Source of the DNA: Tritonibacter multivorans
GTDB taxonomy: Bacteria; Pseudomonadota; Alphaproteobacteria; Rhodobacterales; Rhodobacteraceae
Assembly (NCBI RefSeq): GCF_001458415.1
Contig: NZ_CYSD01000039.1
Span: 62,001 to 126,000 of the forward strand
Direction: 5' to 3'
Length of the DNA: 64,000 bases
Numbering within the stretch: position 1 is the stretch's first letter; every line of letters begins with the position of its first letter. Shown here piece by piece: positions 22,511-27,093 of this stretch. Below the pieces are notes generated by a model. It made no database searches and was not told the origin of the DNA. It worked only from the letters and a program-made list of their open reading frames with translations. Both the position numbers and the translations under genes were made by a program.

Positions 22511-22661
22511 TGTTTCAGAGGGCTCCCTGTGATCTTGCAAAACCAACGCCAATGCGCTTTGTCGCGGGGACTGGGCAGGTTTTGGCTGCCCGCCGCTGGG
22601 CTGGGAACGGAGTGTGAACATTCCCTTTCCGCCTGATGTGAAACAGGCTAGGATGACCGCC

Positions 22662-25100
22662 ATGAGCAGCTTTGACGAAATGGACGCCTTTGAGGGCGCA
22701 TCGCTTTCTTCCCGGGCCATGGCGGCGCGGCCGAAACCTTATATGGATGGTCTGAACGACGCCCAACGTGAGGCGGTGGAATGTTTGGACGGCCCCGTCC
22801 TGATGCTTGCAGGCGCAGGCACCGGCAAAACCAAGGCACTGACCACGCGCATTGTGCATTTGCTGAGCACGGGCCGCGCCCGCACCAATGAGATTTTGGC
22901 GGTCACCTTCACCAACAAAGCCGCGCGCGAGATGAAAGAACGCGTGGGCGGTATGCTGGGCCAGCCGGCCGAAGGCATGCCATGGCTGGGCACGTTTCAC
23001 TCGATCTGTGTGAAACTGCTGCGCCGCCATGCGGAACTGGTGGGGCTGAAGACCAATTTCACCATTCTCGACACCGATGATCAGATCCGTCTGCTCAAGC
23101 AGCTGGTTCAGGCGGCAGGCGTTGACGACAAACGCTGGCCCGCGCGGATGCTGGCGAATATTATTGATGACTGGAAAAACCGCGCCTTGGTGCCGGGCAA
23201 AGTGCCTGCGGGCGACGCCACGGCCTATAACGGGCGCGGCATTGATTTCTATGCGCAGTATCAGACCCGCCTGCGGGAACTGAACGCTGTCGATTTTGGC
23301 GACCTGCTTTTGCATATGGTCACCATCTTTCAGGACAACCCCGACCTGCTGGCGCAATACCACCGCTGGTTCCGCTATGTGATGGTGGACGAATATCAAG
23401 ACACCAATATCGCCCAATATCTGTGGCTGCGGCTGTTGGCGGGCGGGCATAAGAATATCTGCTGTGTCGGGGATGACGATCAGTCGATCTATGGCTGGCG
23501 CGGGGCCGAGGTGGGGAACATCCTGCGGTTCGAGAAGGACTTTCCCGGTGCGAAAGTGGTGCGTCTTGAGCAGAATTACCGGTCGACCGAACATATCCTC
23601 TCTGCCGCCTCTGGTGTGATCCGTGGCAATGAAGGCCGTTTGGGCAAAGAACTGTGGACCGCGGCCGAGGGCGGCGAGAAGGTGCGCCTGATCGGTCACT
23701 GGGACGGCGAGGAAGAGGCGCGCTGGGTCGGTGAAGAAATCGACGCCATGCAGCGCGGCACCCGTGGGATGCGCCCGATTGGCCTGAACGAAATGGCAAT
23801 TCTTGTGCGCGCCTCCCATCAGATGCGCGCGTTTGAGGACCGGTTCCTGACCATCGGCATGCCCTATCGCGTCATTGGTGGGCCACGTTTTTACGAGCGG
23901 TTGGAGATCCGCGATGCCATGGCCTATTTCCGGCTGGTGGTCTCGCCCGAGGATGATCTGGCGTTTGAGCGCATTGTGAACACCCCCAAACGCGGCCTTG
24001 GTGACAAGGCGCAGCAGACGATTCAAACCGTGGCGCGGGCCAATGGTGTTTCGTTGGTCGAAGGCGCAGCAATTGCGGTGCGTGATGGGATGATCAAGGG
24101 CAAAGGGGGCAGCGCCCTGCGCAAGCTGGTCGAGGATCTGGCGCGCTGGCGCAAGATGACCCAGCCCGCCCGTGTTGTGGTCGAAAATGACGAGGTTCTG
24201 GACAATGAGGCGGTAGAGCTGCCGCTGGGCGAGCCCGATATCAGCCATATGGAACTGGCCGAGATCATCCTTGATGAAAGCGGCTATACCACCATGTGGC
24301 AGAACGACAAAAACCCGGACAGCCCGGGCCGTCTTGAAAACCTCAAGGAACTGGTGAAGGCGCTCGAGAATTTTGAGAACCTGCAAGGTTTCCTCGAACA
24401 TGTCAGCCTGGTGATGGACAATGACAAGCAGGACGCCGAAGAAAAAGTGTCGATCATGACGCTGCACGCCGCCAAGGGGTTGGAGTTTCCGGCGGTGTTC
24501 CTGCCGGGCTGGGAGGATGGGTTGTTCCCGTCGCAGCGATCCATGGATGAGAGCGGCCTCAAGGGACTCGAGGAAGAACGGCGACTGGCCTATGTCGGCA
24601 TCACCCGCGCCGAAGAGGTCTGTACCATTTCTTTTGCAGGCAATCGGCGGGTGTTTGGCCAGTGGCAATCGCAGCTGCCGTCGCGGTTTATTGATGAGCT
24701 TCCGGAGGAGCATGTTGAGGTGCTGACGGGCTCTGGTGGTTATGGGGCGTCGGCGCAGTCTGCTTATGGCGGCTTTGGAGATGCGGCCGACAGCTATGGG
24801 CGGTCATCGATCGAGGAGCGGATGTCCAAGGCGGATGGCTATAATTCGCCCGGCTGGAAGCGGTTGCAGTCCCGGTCCAGTCAGCGCGGCCTAAGCCAGC
24901 CGAAGGAAAGCCGCCATCAGACCATCGACGTGACTGCGGTGTCGTCGTTTACGCTGGGCGAGCGGGTGTTCCACCAGAAGTTCGGCTATGGCGCGATTGT
25001 GGGGATCGAGGGCGATAAGTTGGAAGTGGATTTTGAGAAGGCGGGGATCAAGAAAGTTGTGTCACGCTTTGTCACCGCCAGCGATGATGTGCCGTTCTAG
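22662..25100 (+). CDS. uvrD: UvrD/PcrA-type ATP-dependent DNA helicase
   Basis: 3'-5' SF1A helicase for nucleotide excision and mismatch repair and for clearing RecA. About 812 residues. Motif I is AGAGTGKTK (about 50-58), Ia VTFTNKAAREMKERV, II VMVDEYQDTN, III CCVGDDDQSIYGWRGA, IV RLEQNYRST, V MTLHAAKGLEFPAVFLPG and VI RRLAYVGITRAEE. The C-terminal end HQKFGYGAIVGIEGDKLEVDFEKAG is the Tudor-like RNA polymerase-binding tail of PcrA/UvrD. The start MSSFDEMDAF at 22662 is chosen from its AGGA site. In-frame starts at 22614 (GTG) and 22653 are possible. Confidence 0.95.
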   Translation: MSSFDEMDAFEGASLSSRAMAARPKPYMDGLNDAQREAVECLDGPVLMLAGAGTGKTKALTTRIVHLLSTGRARTNEILAVTFTNKAAREMKERVGGMLGQPAEGMPWLGTFHSICVKLLRRHAELVGLKTNFTILDTDDQIRLLKQLVQAAGVDDKRWPARMLANIIDDWKNRALVPGKVPAGDATAYNGRGIDFYAQYQTRLRELNAVDFGDLLLHMVTIFQDNPDLLAQYHRWFRYVMVDEYQDTNIAQYLWLRLLAGGHKNICCVGDDDQSIYGWRGAEVGNILRFEKDFPGAKVVRLEQNYRSTEHILSAASGVIRGNEGRLGKELWTAAEGGEKVRLIGHWDGEEEARWVGEEIDAMQRGTRGMRPIGLNEMAILVRASHQMRAFEDRFLTIGMPYRVIGGPRFYERLEIRDAMAYFRLVVSPEDDLAFERIVNTPKRGLGDKAQQTIQTVARANGVSLVEGAAIAVRDGMIKGKGGSALRKLVEDLARWRKMTQPARVVVENDEVLDNEAVELPLGEPDISHMELAEIILDESGYTTMWQNDKNPDSPGRLENLKELVKALENFENLQGFLEHVSLVMDNDKQDAEEKVSIMTLHAAKGLEFPAVFLPGWEDGLFPSQRSMDESGLKGLEEERRLAYVGITRAEEVCTISFAGNRRVFGQWQSQLPSRFIDELPEEHVEVLTGSGGYGASAQSAYGGFGDAADSYGRSSIEERMSKADGYNSPGWKRLQSRSSQRGLSQPKESRHQTIDVTAVSSFTLGERVFHQKFGYGAIVGIEGDKLEVDFEKAGIKKVVSRFVTASDDVPF

Positions 25101-25106
25101 GCAGGA

Positions 25107-25148
25107 GGCAACCTGAGAGCGGCAACCTGAGAGAGACAACCTGAGAGG
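25107..25148 (+). repeat. Three tandem 14-bp repeats
   Basis: GGCAACCTGAGAGC, GGCAACCTGAGAGA and GACAACCTGAGAGG in perfect 14-base register, starting 6 bases after the uvrD stop. Confidence 0.85.
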
Positions 25149-25149
25149 T

Positions 25150-25224
25150 GTCGGATTGCTGCGCAATCCGACCGGGGGCAGCGGGGGCGCGGATCCTATG
25201 GATCCGCGCCCCCGCTGCCTTTTG
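25150..25224 (+). terminator. uvrD terminator: two successive hairpins
   Basis: The first hairpin is GTCGGATTG-CTGCG-CAATCCGAC (25150-25172). The second has a perfect 20-bp stem, 25177-25196 with 25200-25219, a TAT loop and GGATCC at the top, and is followed by TTTTG. Confidence 0.85.
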
Positions 25225-25289
25225 CCGCTCGCTTCAACGCTATGTGGATCGGTCGGCGCGGCGCGTGGATGTTAAATGAGGGCTCCAAA

Positions 25290-25332
25290 ACAGAAAACGG
25301 CGGTGCCAGGGAGGAGGAGAGGCACCGCCGTT
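25290..25332 (-). ncRNA. ccsR4: CcsR-type small RNA 4 with terminator
   Basis: Minus strand stem AACGGCGGTGCC/GGCACCGCCGTT (25296-25307 with 25321-25332), with loop TCTCCTCCTCCCT carrying the CCTCCTCCC motif. The T-rich TTTCTGTTTTGG follows, so this last hairpin probably also ends transcription. Confidence 0.8.
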
Positions 25333-25339
25333 CTGACTA

Positions 25340-25371
25340 GCACCGGAAAAAGGGAGGAGGAGCTCCGGTGC
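25340..25371 (-). ncRNA. ccsR3: CcsR-type small RNA 3
   Basis: Stem GCACCGGA/TCCGGTGC (25340-25347 with 25364-25371). The loop carries CTCCTCCTCCC on the minus strand. It is one of four consecutive hairpins with the same loop but different stems. Confidence 0.8.
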
Positions 25372-25401
25372 GTCTCGGCCCGGCTTTCGCCGGAATAAGG
25401 T

Positions 25402-25435
25402 GCGGTGACATCAGGGAGGAGGAAGATGTCACCGC
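25402..25435 (-). ncRNA. ccsR2: CcsR-type small RNA 2
   Basis: Stem GCGGTGACATC/GATGTCACCGC (25402-25412 with 25425-25435), with loop TTCCTCCTCCCT on the minus strand. The stem is an 11-bp perfect match. Confidence 0.8.
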
Positions 25436-25441
25436 GAAGCA

Positions 25442-25472
25442 CAGGTCCCAAGGGAGGAGGAGAAGGGACCTG
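25442..25472 (-). ncRNA. ccsR1: CcsR-type small RNA 1
   Basis: Stem CAGGTCCC/GGGACCTG (25442-25449 with 25465-25472), with loop TTCTCCTCCTCCCTT on the minus strand. It lies 17 bases after the DUF1127 stop, so it is cut out of the same transcript. In Rhodobacter sphaeroides four such RNAs follow the DUF1127 gene and act in oxidative and membrane stress. Confidence 0.8.
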
Positions 25473-25488
25473 AACCCGTTGTTCTATG

Positions 25489-25701
25489 TCATTGGTCGCC
25501 GTAGGCGGCTGCATAAGCAGCAGAGCGCAGGTTGGATCGGTTCAGGCCAAGATCAGCGAGGTCGCGACCCGAGAGCTCGGAAAGCTCGTTCAGGGTTTTG
25601 CGGTAGACGCTGTAGCGGACCCATTTGTCTTTCAGAGCCTGAAGGAAACCAGCGCCTGTGGCGTTCGATTTCAAAACTTGGATCTGGTCAACAGCAGTCA
25701 T
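25489..25701 (-). CDS. ccaF1: DUF1127 small RNA-binding protein (CcaF1-like)
   Basis: A 70-residue basic protein ending in the DUF1127 motif: WVRYSVYRKTLNELSELSGRDLADLGLNRSNLRSAAYAAAYGDQ, with the characteristic L-x-x-L-S-x-R-x-L-x-D-L-G-L-x-R. Four CCTCCTCCC-loop hairpins follow on the same strand, which is the arrangement of the R. sphaeroides locus of CcaF1 (DUF1127) and CcsR1-4. There the protein promotes maturation of the RNAs and the locus is driven by RpoH-type sigma factors. Here that role is inferred from synteny and family. The ATG at 25701 has only a weak ribosome site. Confidence 0.85.
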   Translation of the reverse strand: MTAVDQIQVLKSNATGAGFLQALKDKWVRYSVYRKTLNELSELSGRDLADLGLNRSNLRSAAYAAAYGDQ

Positions 25702-25773
25702 ATCGCGTCTTACTCATTCGTCATCTTGGTGGTGCGATCCGCACCCGGCGCCGTCTTGGCGTCCTTGAGAATT

Positions 25774-25801
25774 AAAATACGCTATTGCTGCGTTTGCACA
25801 A
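25774..25801 (-). promoter_or_regulatory. Candidate promoter of the ccaF1-ccsR operon
   Basis: Minus strand TTGTGC (25796-25801), 16-base spacer, TATTTT (25774-25779), about 70 bases before the ATG. It is uncertain whether sigma70 or an RpoH-type factor reads it. Confidence 0.4.
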
Positions 25802-25974
25802 TCCGGTGGTTGGTCATTTCTGCTATGCAGCAAGTGCATACGTTCCTCGAGGGAAAAACCGGAGTTGCTTAATTTCGCGCCGGTCTGACGTGCCACTTGC
25901 CCCCTCGGTGGGCGCAGAGTGATTTTGCGGTGTGTTTTTTGTGGGAAATCCCGCCGTCGGTGTAGCGGATGGGC

Positions 25975-26003
25975 TTGGGGTAGGGCGACTCACGGCCTAT
26001 ATC
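25975..26003 (+). promoter_or_regulatory. Promoter of apbC
   Basis: TTGGGG (25975-25980), 17-base spacer, TATATC (25998-26003), giving a 5' leader of about 20 nt. Confidence 0.6.
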
Positions 26004-26028
26004 GCCCGCAACATGAAGGAGAATTGAA

Positions 26029-27093
26029 ATGGCCGTTACTGCGGAACAGATTCGCGAGGCTCTGGAGCGCCTGGCGCTGCCGGATGGCGGGACGTTGGTG
26101 TCGCGCGATATGCTGCGGGCGTTGCAGGTCGAAGGTGGGCAGGTGCGCTTTGTCATTGAGGCGCCGACGCCAGAGATTGCAAAACTTATGGAACCCCTGC
26201 GCAAGGCGGCGGAGGCCTCGGTTCAGGCCTTGCCGGGCGTAGAGAGTGTTTCAGTTGCGCTGACCGCCCATGCAGGCGCGCCGAAAGCCCCAAGCCTGAA
26301 AGTGGGAGGTCATCCCAAACCGCAAGCGGAGCCCCTGCGCCCGGCGGGTGTGAAAAAGATTATTGCGATCGGGTCCGGCAAGGGCGGCGTCGGAAAGTCT
26401 ACGGTCAGTGCCAACCTTGCCGTGGCTCTGGCAAAACAGGGCCGCAAGGTCGGTTTGCTGGATGCGGACATTTATGGGCCCAGCCAGCCGCGCATGATGG
26501 GGGCCTCTGGGCGGCCGGGCAGCCCGGATGGCAAAATCATCGAACCTCTTACGGCCCATGGGGTCACGTTGATGTCGATTGGCCTGATGGTTGAAGAACG
26601 CAAGGCTGTGGTGTGGCGTGGGCCCATGTTGATGGGGGCGATGCAGCAGATGCTGGGCCAGGTGAACTGGGGCGAGCTGGATGTGCTGCTGATCGACTTG
26701 CCACCGGGGACCGGTGATGTGCAACTGACACTTTGCACCAAAGCAGAGATGGACGGTGTGATTGTTGTCTCGACCCCGCAGGATGTGGCGCTGATCGATG
26801 CGCGCAAGGCATTGGATATGTTCGAGACCATGAAAACGCCGGTGCTGGGCTTGATTGAGAATATGTCCTTCTTCACTTGCCCGGATTGCGGCAGCAGTCA
26901 CGAGATCTTTGGCAATGGCGGCGTTGCGGATGAAGCCAAAGAGATGGGGGTTCCGCTGCTGGGCACCTTGCCGATTGATCTGGAAACCCGCTTGGCCGGG
27001 GACGCAGGCACCCCGATTGCAGCCGGGGAGGGGCCTATGGCTCAGGCTTATGCCCGTATCGCTGAGGGGCTTGTCGCGGGCGGCATGGCCTAA
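26029..27093 (+). CDS. apbC: Iron-sulfur cluster carrier protein ApbC (Mrp)
   Basis: P-loop ATPase that carries and transfers Fe-S clusters in the cytoplasm. It has 354 residues. An N-terminal MIP18/DUF59-type domain (about 1-80) is followed by a linker and the deviant Walker A GKGGVGKST (117-125). Next come DADIYGPSQPRMMG, the Walker B-like LLIDLPPGTGDVQLT, and the C-terminal cluster-binding FFTCPDCG with the CxxC pair. It has a strong GGAGAA ribosome site and its own promoter and terminator, so it is separate from the dcw operon that follows. Confidence 0.95.
   Translation: MAVTAEQIREALERLALPDGGTLVSRDMLRALQVEGGQVRFVIEAPTPEIAKLMEPLRKAAEASVQALPGVESVSVALTAHAGAPKAPSLKVGGHPKPQAEPLRPAGVKKIIAIGSGKGGVGKSTVSANLAVALAKQGRKVGLLDADIYGPSQPRMMGASGRPGSPDGKIIEPLTAHGVTLMSIGLMVEERKAVVWRGPMLMGAMQQMLGQVNWGELDVLLIDLPPGTGDVQLTLCTKAEMDGVIVVSTPQDVALIDARKALDMFETMKTPVLGLIENMSFFTCPDCGSSHEIFGNGGVADEAKEMGVPLLGTLPIDLETRLAGDAGTPIAAGEGPMAQAYARIAEGLVAGGMA

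Follow-up and report, generated by a model that had tools for sequence, protein, structure and literature searches.

A DUF1127 gene with two tandem CcsR-like hairpin units in Tritonibacter multivorans: architecture, upstream boxes and predicted targets

The window, a 64,000-nucleotide (nt) stretch of Tritonibacter multivorans DNA (contig NZ_CYSD01000039.1, positions 62,001 to 126,000), carries on its minus strand a short DUF1127 gene and an array of four hairpins directly behind it. This locus is probably a stress operon of the CIN1 type (cuckoo/CcsR), in which the DUF1127 gene is followed by two tandem two-hairpin units. An initial annotation made from the sequence alone had identified it with the CcaF1/CcsR1-4 locus of Rhodobacter sphaeroides, and as to kind the identification was borne out by the combination of a DUF1127 gene with two-hairpin units that carry the CCUCCUCCC loop. 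The locus itself is thus of a known kind; its upstream box and its set of predicted targets are new leads.

Four hairpins in two units

Within about 200 nt behind the DUF1127 frame stand four minus-strand hairpins with near-identical CUCCUCCUCCCU loops. The features of the transcribed part are:

25489-25701, minus strand: gene of a CcaF1-like DUF1127 protein of 70 amino acids (aa); Pfam PF06568, E 2e-10; found in 22 relatives
25397-25476, minus strand: CcsR-like unit 1 (H1 and H2); Rfam RF02791 CcsR1, positions 1-83 of 83, 43.5 bits, below the gathering score of 65.3
25292-25381, minus strand: CcsR-like unit 2 (H3 and H4); Rfam RF02791 CcsR1, positions 1-83 of 83, 41.7 bits, below the gathering score of 65.3
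25442-25472, minus strand: hairpin H1, type A, 8-bp stem, loop at 25450-25464 (fold and stem analysis)
25402-25435, minus strand: hairpin H2, type B, 11-bp stem (fold and stem analysis, covariation)
25340-25371, minus strand: hairpin H3, type A, 9-bp stem (fold and stem analysis)
25294-25334, minus strand: stem of hairpin H4, type B, 14 bp, terminator-like, with a T-rich tail at 25286-25293 (sequence and stem analysis)
25380-25393, minus strand: small hairpin, CCGGC-GAAA-GCCGG, in the spacer that separates the two units (fold), possibly a processing region

The 221-nt stretch folds at -99.3 kcal/mol, its shuffled versions at -63.5 kcal/mol (standard deviation 4.5; z -8.05; 0 of 200 shuffles as stable). 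Three of the four loops contain CTCCTCCTCCC exactly and H2 the variant TTCCTCCTCCC; the word CUCCUCCUCCC is likewise present in three loops, with UUCCUCCUCCC in H2, and the 9-mer CCTCCTCCC is common to all four. H4 ends in TTTTCTGTTTT. The four consecutive minus-strand hairpins with almost the same loop and the T-rich tail after the last of them, as initially annotated, were thus confirmed, while the description of the stems as unrelated was not right: the stems of H2 and H4 are alike at the base, and the relatives preserve the stems through compensatory changes. Two to four adjacent hairpins with the CCUCCUCCC loop motif on variable stems, preceded directly and on the same strand by a DUF1127 gene, characterize a CcsR/cuckoo CIN1 locus, and both traits were found here. 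In the whole genome the 9-mer CCTCCTCCC is not clearly over-represented (20 sites, compared to 16 for the reversed word). It is the placement of the word that stands out: five of the 20 sites lie in loops of stems of at least 8 bp, four of them in this array and the fifth behind a DUF1127 gene on contig C20 (L047); the best uninterrupted stem at the remaining 15 has at most 6 bp, although one of these (L027) belongs to a longer hairpin with interruptions.

Four small RNAs of CcsR type had been proposed for the locus; the type stood, the count probably does not. The loop motifs are spaced by 38, 62 and 43 nt, and this short-long-short order was observed in 13 of 13 close relatives (L001-L013), while two Shimia loci (L018 and L020) present four hairpin pairs in the same pattern. 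Within each pair a weaker A stem is followed by a longer B stem. In a permissive Rfam scan, the 83-nt, two-hairpin model CcsR1 (RF02791) matched twice from end to end, and the R. sphaeroides RNA RSs0680a is reported to have two stem loops (PMC3927594). Because of the motif spacing, the two end-to-end matches and the architecture of RSs0680a, the array is read as two CcsR-like units, and the RNAs at the locus most likely number two, not four.

Of the 43 listed units, 33 entered a first alignment (A2), which mixed two types of A stem and of which the B stem alone was used. For pair counts and for the covariance model, 18 of these 33 units were kept (A3), 15 having been dropped before counting; ten rows came from the window and nine of L001-L013, six from Shimia L018/L020 and two from L022. 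In these 18 units (17 distinct rows) standard pairs fill 98.5% of the cells, 11 of the 16 pairs changed on both sides, and double-sided changes amount to 50 cells versus 14.4 in shuffles, with 0 of 500 shuffles as high. When the partner was shifted by 1-3 columns, pairing fell to 28-52%. Invariant columns among 14 orthologous second units (those of the window and of L001-L013) number 23 of 24 in the loops, 2 of 9 on the 5' side of stem A, 10 of 14 and 11 of 14 on the two sides of stem B, and none of 10 in the 5' flank. Covarying stems around fixed loops support selection on the loop, which the initial annotation had suggested, and the contrary picture of conserved flanks around changing loops was not seen in these relatives.

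Several observations weigh against the assignment to two CcsR units. The covariance search against the cuckoo/CcsR family, recommended at the outset, did yield two end-to-end CcsR1 matches, but both scored below the gathering threshold, as did the match to ar14 (RF02344), which covers three of the four hairpins with 48.0 bits against a gathering score of 58.8. At gathering thresholds the Rfam scan of the window returned three tRNAs and nothing at the locus. Irregular arrays occur in Paracoccus (L014-L016, L019) and at L062, L072, L077, L079 and L080, and further pair types are hardly enriched in the 18 aligned units (22 versus 19.6 in shuffles, 48 of 500 as high). At the other loci scanned every CcsR1 match was also below 65.3 bits, the best reaching 51.3; the Paracoccus relative L015 passed the ar14 gathering score with 61.6 bits.

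At a cut-off of E<=0.01, the unit covariance model (R1) has matches in 122 of 149 Rhodobacteraceae genomes, one per genus, some of which may be close to training rows owing to the origins of the A3 rows. Matching genomes have 1-10 matches, the genome of the window three. Because of this distribution, the locus is an ordinary, well-kept member of the known cuckoo/CIN1 kind. In a class sample of 289 genomes, searched at E<=1e-4 with stricter filters, four matched, all of the same family and including the window's own genome; this figure applies to the class sample as a whole, not to its Rhodobacteraceae alone. A second set of 33 loci was assembled from the best-scoring loci of 30 family genomes (window included) and three loci of the class search. 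A DUF1127 match was obtained in 26 of them, and the other seven have hairpin units with no DUF1127 match detected within the stretch examined.

The resemblance to CcaF1-CcsR1-4 extends to the DUF1127 protein, of 71 aa in R. sphaeroides (PMC10253847) and 70 aa here, and to two-hairpin units with CCUCCUCCC loops behind its gene, closed by a terminator-like end. In R. sphaeroides, however, four units are reported versus two here, the matches in our locus stay below the gathering score, and the text consulted mentions no LysR box. The cuckoo family (CIN1; Reinkensmeier and Giegerich 2015) likewise has short DUF1127 genes beside CcsR-like RNAs (PMC4504443, PMC10253847). The stems here are partly alike (H2, H4), and no test made here rules membership out.

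Upstream boxes and a candidate regulator

In the alignment of relatives the region upstream of the operon is strongly conserved. It contains:

25825-25838, minus strand: box 1 for a LysR-type regulator, TGCA-N6-GCAT (TGCACTTGCTGCAT), about 64 nt 5' of the presumed transcription start
25785-25798, minus strand: box 2, imperfect (TGCAAACGCAGCAA), which overlaps with the -35 region and is TGCA-N6-GCAT in many relatives
25774-25801, minus strand: putative promoter core, TTGTGC (25796-25801), 16 nt, TATTTT (25774-25779), proposed from its position and from the conservation of the upstream alignment

Box 1 would be centred near -64 of a start at about 25767, and it lies 37 nt from TTGTGC. A scan for the sigma-70 consensus over 25100-26030 found no promoter on either strand and is therefore uninformative on the putative one. 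TGC-N7-GCAT together with TTGTGC, always 36-37 nt apart, was present in the window and in 19 of 22 named relatives, 13 of which have the strict TGCA-N6-GCAT version; in this counted form the pair is absent from L003, L018 and L020. For the 33 loci of the second set, three further TTG words and a distance of 35-38 nt were allowed in an expression devised after the first set. The pair was then found at 25 of the 33 loci in sense (18 with strict TGCA), at none in antisense and in 2 of 660 mononucleotide-shuffled loci, and eight loci are without it in the counted form. The exact pattern TGCTGCATAGC has one site in the genome, the locus itself, and therefore reveals no further regulon.

The box published for LsrB at the nfeR1 promoter of rhizobia has this form, TGCA-N6-GCAT, and in our locus, as for ar14/NfeR1, it stands upstream of the putative promoter. 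A LysR box at a CcsR locus was not met in the literature searched; the central papers of the family, outside that search, may describe it. NfeR1/ar14 of Sinorhizobium and relatives (RF02344) further presents the same loop on variable stems, has TGCA-N6-GCAT upstream at a similar distance, and its candidate targets are, like those predicted below, rich in transport functions (PMC10746234). It differs by its three hairpins, in contrast to four in two pairs here, by a reported sigma-70 core, and in that no DUF1127 gene is named in the text consulted. The AbcR1/AbcR2 RNAs, listed among the closest systems without a sequence comparison, are a different RNA.

A LysR gene next to trxB is the neighbourhood described for vtlR (PMC12595884). 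Identification of LsrB by this synteny failed in the window's genome, the trxB neighbour looking by eye like an Lrp/AsnC-type gene and not a LysR gene. Of 30 trxB loci examined, taken from 53 matching genomes, 11 had an adjacent LysR gene, and a profile built from the alignment of these 11 proteins retrieved one protein of the own genome (C42:410567-411433) with 374 bits, the next best having 178. Over 296 residues this protein shares about 52% identity with the closest of the 11. By similarity, the genome appears to encode a regulator of the LsrB/VtlR class. LsrB-like matches at E<1e-100 were present in 29 of 31 family genomes, and the protein also occurs in genomes without a unit match, e.g., G001 and G004. 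On the range of LsrB the sources conflict: a section heading calls it a LysR-type transcriptional regulator unique to Rhizobiales (PMC11975290), whereas VtlR/LsrB is elsewhere stated to be present in many Alphaproteobacteria (PMC7486931), a conflict that similarity searches cannot settle.

An LsrB/VtlR-class LysR regulator may thus activate the operon through the TGCA-N6-GCAT boxes, which is the less certain part of the proposal. There is a serious chance, somewhat short of even, that another LysR-type protein binds the boxes or that the upstream conservation merely reflects a promoter for RpoHI/RpoHII. It weighs against LsrB control that the published assignment for R. sphaeroides ccaF1 is an RpoHI/RpoHII promoter and not a LysR regulator (PMC10253847), and the heading that limits LsrB to Rhizobiales (PMC11975290) points in the same direction, as do the LsrB-like gene that does not adjoin trxB here and the pair missing in its counted form from three of the 22 named relatives and eight of the 33 family loci. 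In favour of LsrB-class control, box 1 shares its form with the LsrB box and is situated beyond a core promoter, and an LsrB-like protein is widely present in the family (29 of 31 genomes). An RpoHI/RpoHII promoter and control by an LsrB-class regulator can be compatible.

Predicted targets and mode of action

The loop is complementary to GGGAGGAGGAG. In the genome, GGGAGGAG with an ATG 3-11 nt further on occurs at 29 sites, the reversed pattern at 5; one of the 29 is the array itself, and 25 open a frame of at least 60 aa. According to Pfam, 8 of these 25 frames encode solute-binding proteins (L095, L103, L104, L106, L107, L111, L112, L118). Another eight belong to other known families: molybdenum hydroxylase subunits (L108, L116, L117), Nitrate_red_del (L101), a GFO/IDH/MocA oxidoreductase (L097), a sulfide-dehydrogenase flavoprotein (L123), an acyl-CoA dehydrogenase (L115) and an AMP-binding enzyme (L119). 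For the remaining nine, Pfam gives either no family or a family of unknown function. The control word GAAGGAGA at the same spacing gave 38 places, 30 of which were fetched, with 24 frames of at least 60 aa and 18 after merging of duplicates (17 scanned, the eighteenth being mrp). No solute-binding protein was among these 18 controls and two were transporter permeases; the enrichment (8/25 versus 0/18) has a one-sided Fisher p of 0.0075. In a second genus (G141) 13 sites opened 11 frames, of which 10 were scanned, and four of the 11 are solute-binding proteins. Close homologues of four of the 25 predicted targets reappear in that genus (66-91% identity), with a fifth pair at only 25% identity; none of the 24 control frames recurs. 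Small counts, the single control word and uncurated start codons tell against this test, and highly expressed transport genes may favour such ribosome sites anyway.

The target set would fit what is reported for the related RNAs: most NfeR1 candidate targets are transport systems of the ATP-binding cassette (ABC) type, two of them tested and confirmed (PMC10746234), and CcsR1-4 modulate C1 metabolism (PMC10253847). Three GGGAGGAG-ATG sites on both strands are clustered within about 2 kb on contig C21 (44594-46628; L100, L101, L102), where they surround the Nitrate_red_del protein and a short Tat-type protein, possibly, as judged by eye, in a formate dehydrogenase cluster.

A mode of action can be proposed from the R. 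sphaeroides and rhizobial relatives. In R. sphaeroides ccaF1 is co-transcribed with CcsR1-4, stress induction through RpoHI/RpoHII is reported, and the transcript is processed by RNase E with the participation of CcaF1 (PMC10253847), the CcsR RNAs are Hfq-dependent (PMC7866481, PMC8307010), and CcaF1 binds RNA (PMC12501420, PMC10253847). Under stress, one transcript of about 480 nt would likewise be formed here, and RNase E, helped by the DUF1127 protein, would cut it at presumed sites into two RNAs of about 80 nt. Each of them would expose two anti-Shine-Dalgarno loops which, as proposed from NfeR1, may base-pair to extended ribosome sites (GGGAGGAG) and prevent translation. Targets are predicted to be mainly periplasmic binding proteins of ABC and tripartite ATP-independent periplasmic (TRAP) transporters, together with molybdenum-hydroxylase and sulfide-oxidation genes. 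NfeR1 loops silence ntrB, and the lowering of the ntrB reporter was lost in a variant whose three loop motifs were mutated (PMC10746234). The initial annotation had regarded the loops as sponges, which is less likely than direct pairing with ribosome sites, as supported by these reporter tests of the related NfeR1.

Three other explanations of the array have to be weighed. Four independent single-hairpin small RNAs, each equal to one of CcsR1-4, are highly improbable: four hairpins do share one loop and spacing is irregular in some relatives, but the short-long-short order, the A-B succession of two stem types and the two full-length matches to a two-hairpin model speak against this. The loops could, instead of base pairing, serve as an array of protein-binding sites, occupied by the DUF1127 protein or by a repressor protein that they titrate in the way CsrB titrates CsrA. 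Such an array would be in keeping with an invariant single-stranded motif that recurs on variable stems next to a gene whose family has an RNA-binding member, CcaF1 (PMC12501420, PMC10253847). It is nevertheless improbable in view of the match of the loops to extended ribosome sites, the loss of ntrB repression in the NfeR1 loop-motif mutant (PMC10746234), and the seven of 33 loci with hairpin units and no DUF1127 gene detected within the stretch examined. The loop contains the CCUCC core of the anti-Shine-Dalgarno sequence, and as a ribosome decoy it might mimic the 16S tail, occupy mRNAs with a strong Shine-Dalgarno site in general and lower translation broadly in stress. This is unlikely as well, since loop columns outside the CCUCC core are also invariant, and since genes with a GGGAGGAG site are functionally skewed and 4 of 25 recur as orthologues in the second genus.

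Beyond the operon itself with its paired units, we tentatively consider, at somewhat less than an even chance, one ancient circuit across two alphaproteobacterial orders. In it an LsrB/VtlR-class regulator and TGCA-N6-GCAT boxes would drive anti-Shine-Dalgarno cuckoo RNAs, which in Rhodobacterales mostly follow a DUF1127 gene and in rhizobia stand alone; these RNAs would repress periplasmic binding proteins and genes of C1, CO and sulfur oxidation via the shared ribosome-site code GGGAGGAG. Control of CcsR RNAs by an LsrB-class regulator in Rhodobacterales, if real, would unite the CcsR system and the symbiosis RNA NfeR1 in one conserved module of transcription factor and small RNA, and it would turn the inducing signal of cuckoo RNAs and the constancy of their loop into directly testable questions.

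Neighbourhood and further occurrences

The locus is flanked by genes of a UvrD/PcrA-type helicase (22614-25100, plus strand) and an mrp-type ATPase (26029-27093, plus strand), which we take from their Pfam domains to be pcrA and mrp. Among the 22 named relatives mrp adjoins the locus in 21 and pcrA in 16; in one of these relatives, L005, the locus ends at the contig edge. Between the end of pcrA and the RNA locus lies a perfect inverted repeat of 20 bp around a 3-nt loop (GGCAGCGGGGGCGCGGATCC-ATA-GGATCC...; 25177-25219) without a T-run, possibly a terminator shared by both sides or else a repeat element; L001 has a different stem in a similar place.

The genome contains six DUF1127 genes. Among the five other loci, searched on both strands with the unit model at E<=1, the C20 locus alone matched. 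This second CIN1-like locus (C20:20100-20353; L047 1423-1754) has one unit: behind a DUF1127 gene stand two hairpins whose loops are of the same kind, the last on a 16-bp stem. TGCATTTGATGCAT is present upstream, and TTGTGC is absent 37 nt further on. In another family genome (L084, 993-2858) four DUF1127 matches alternate with hairpin motifs in a single locus. L058, L060, L063 and L064 have hairpins and the box pair with no DUF1127 detected and resemble the free-standing rhizobial NfeR1 layout. A further CCTCCTCCC word in the own genome (L027, about 1460-1540; contig C18:46727-46735, minus strand) occupies the loop of a terminator-like hairpin, long but interrupted, shortly upstream of a gene that by eye resembles a transporter binding protein, and may be due to chance or be an unrelated leader.
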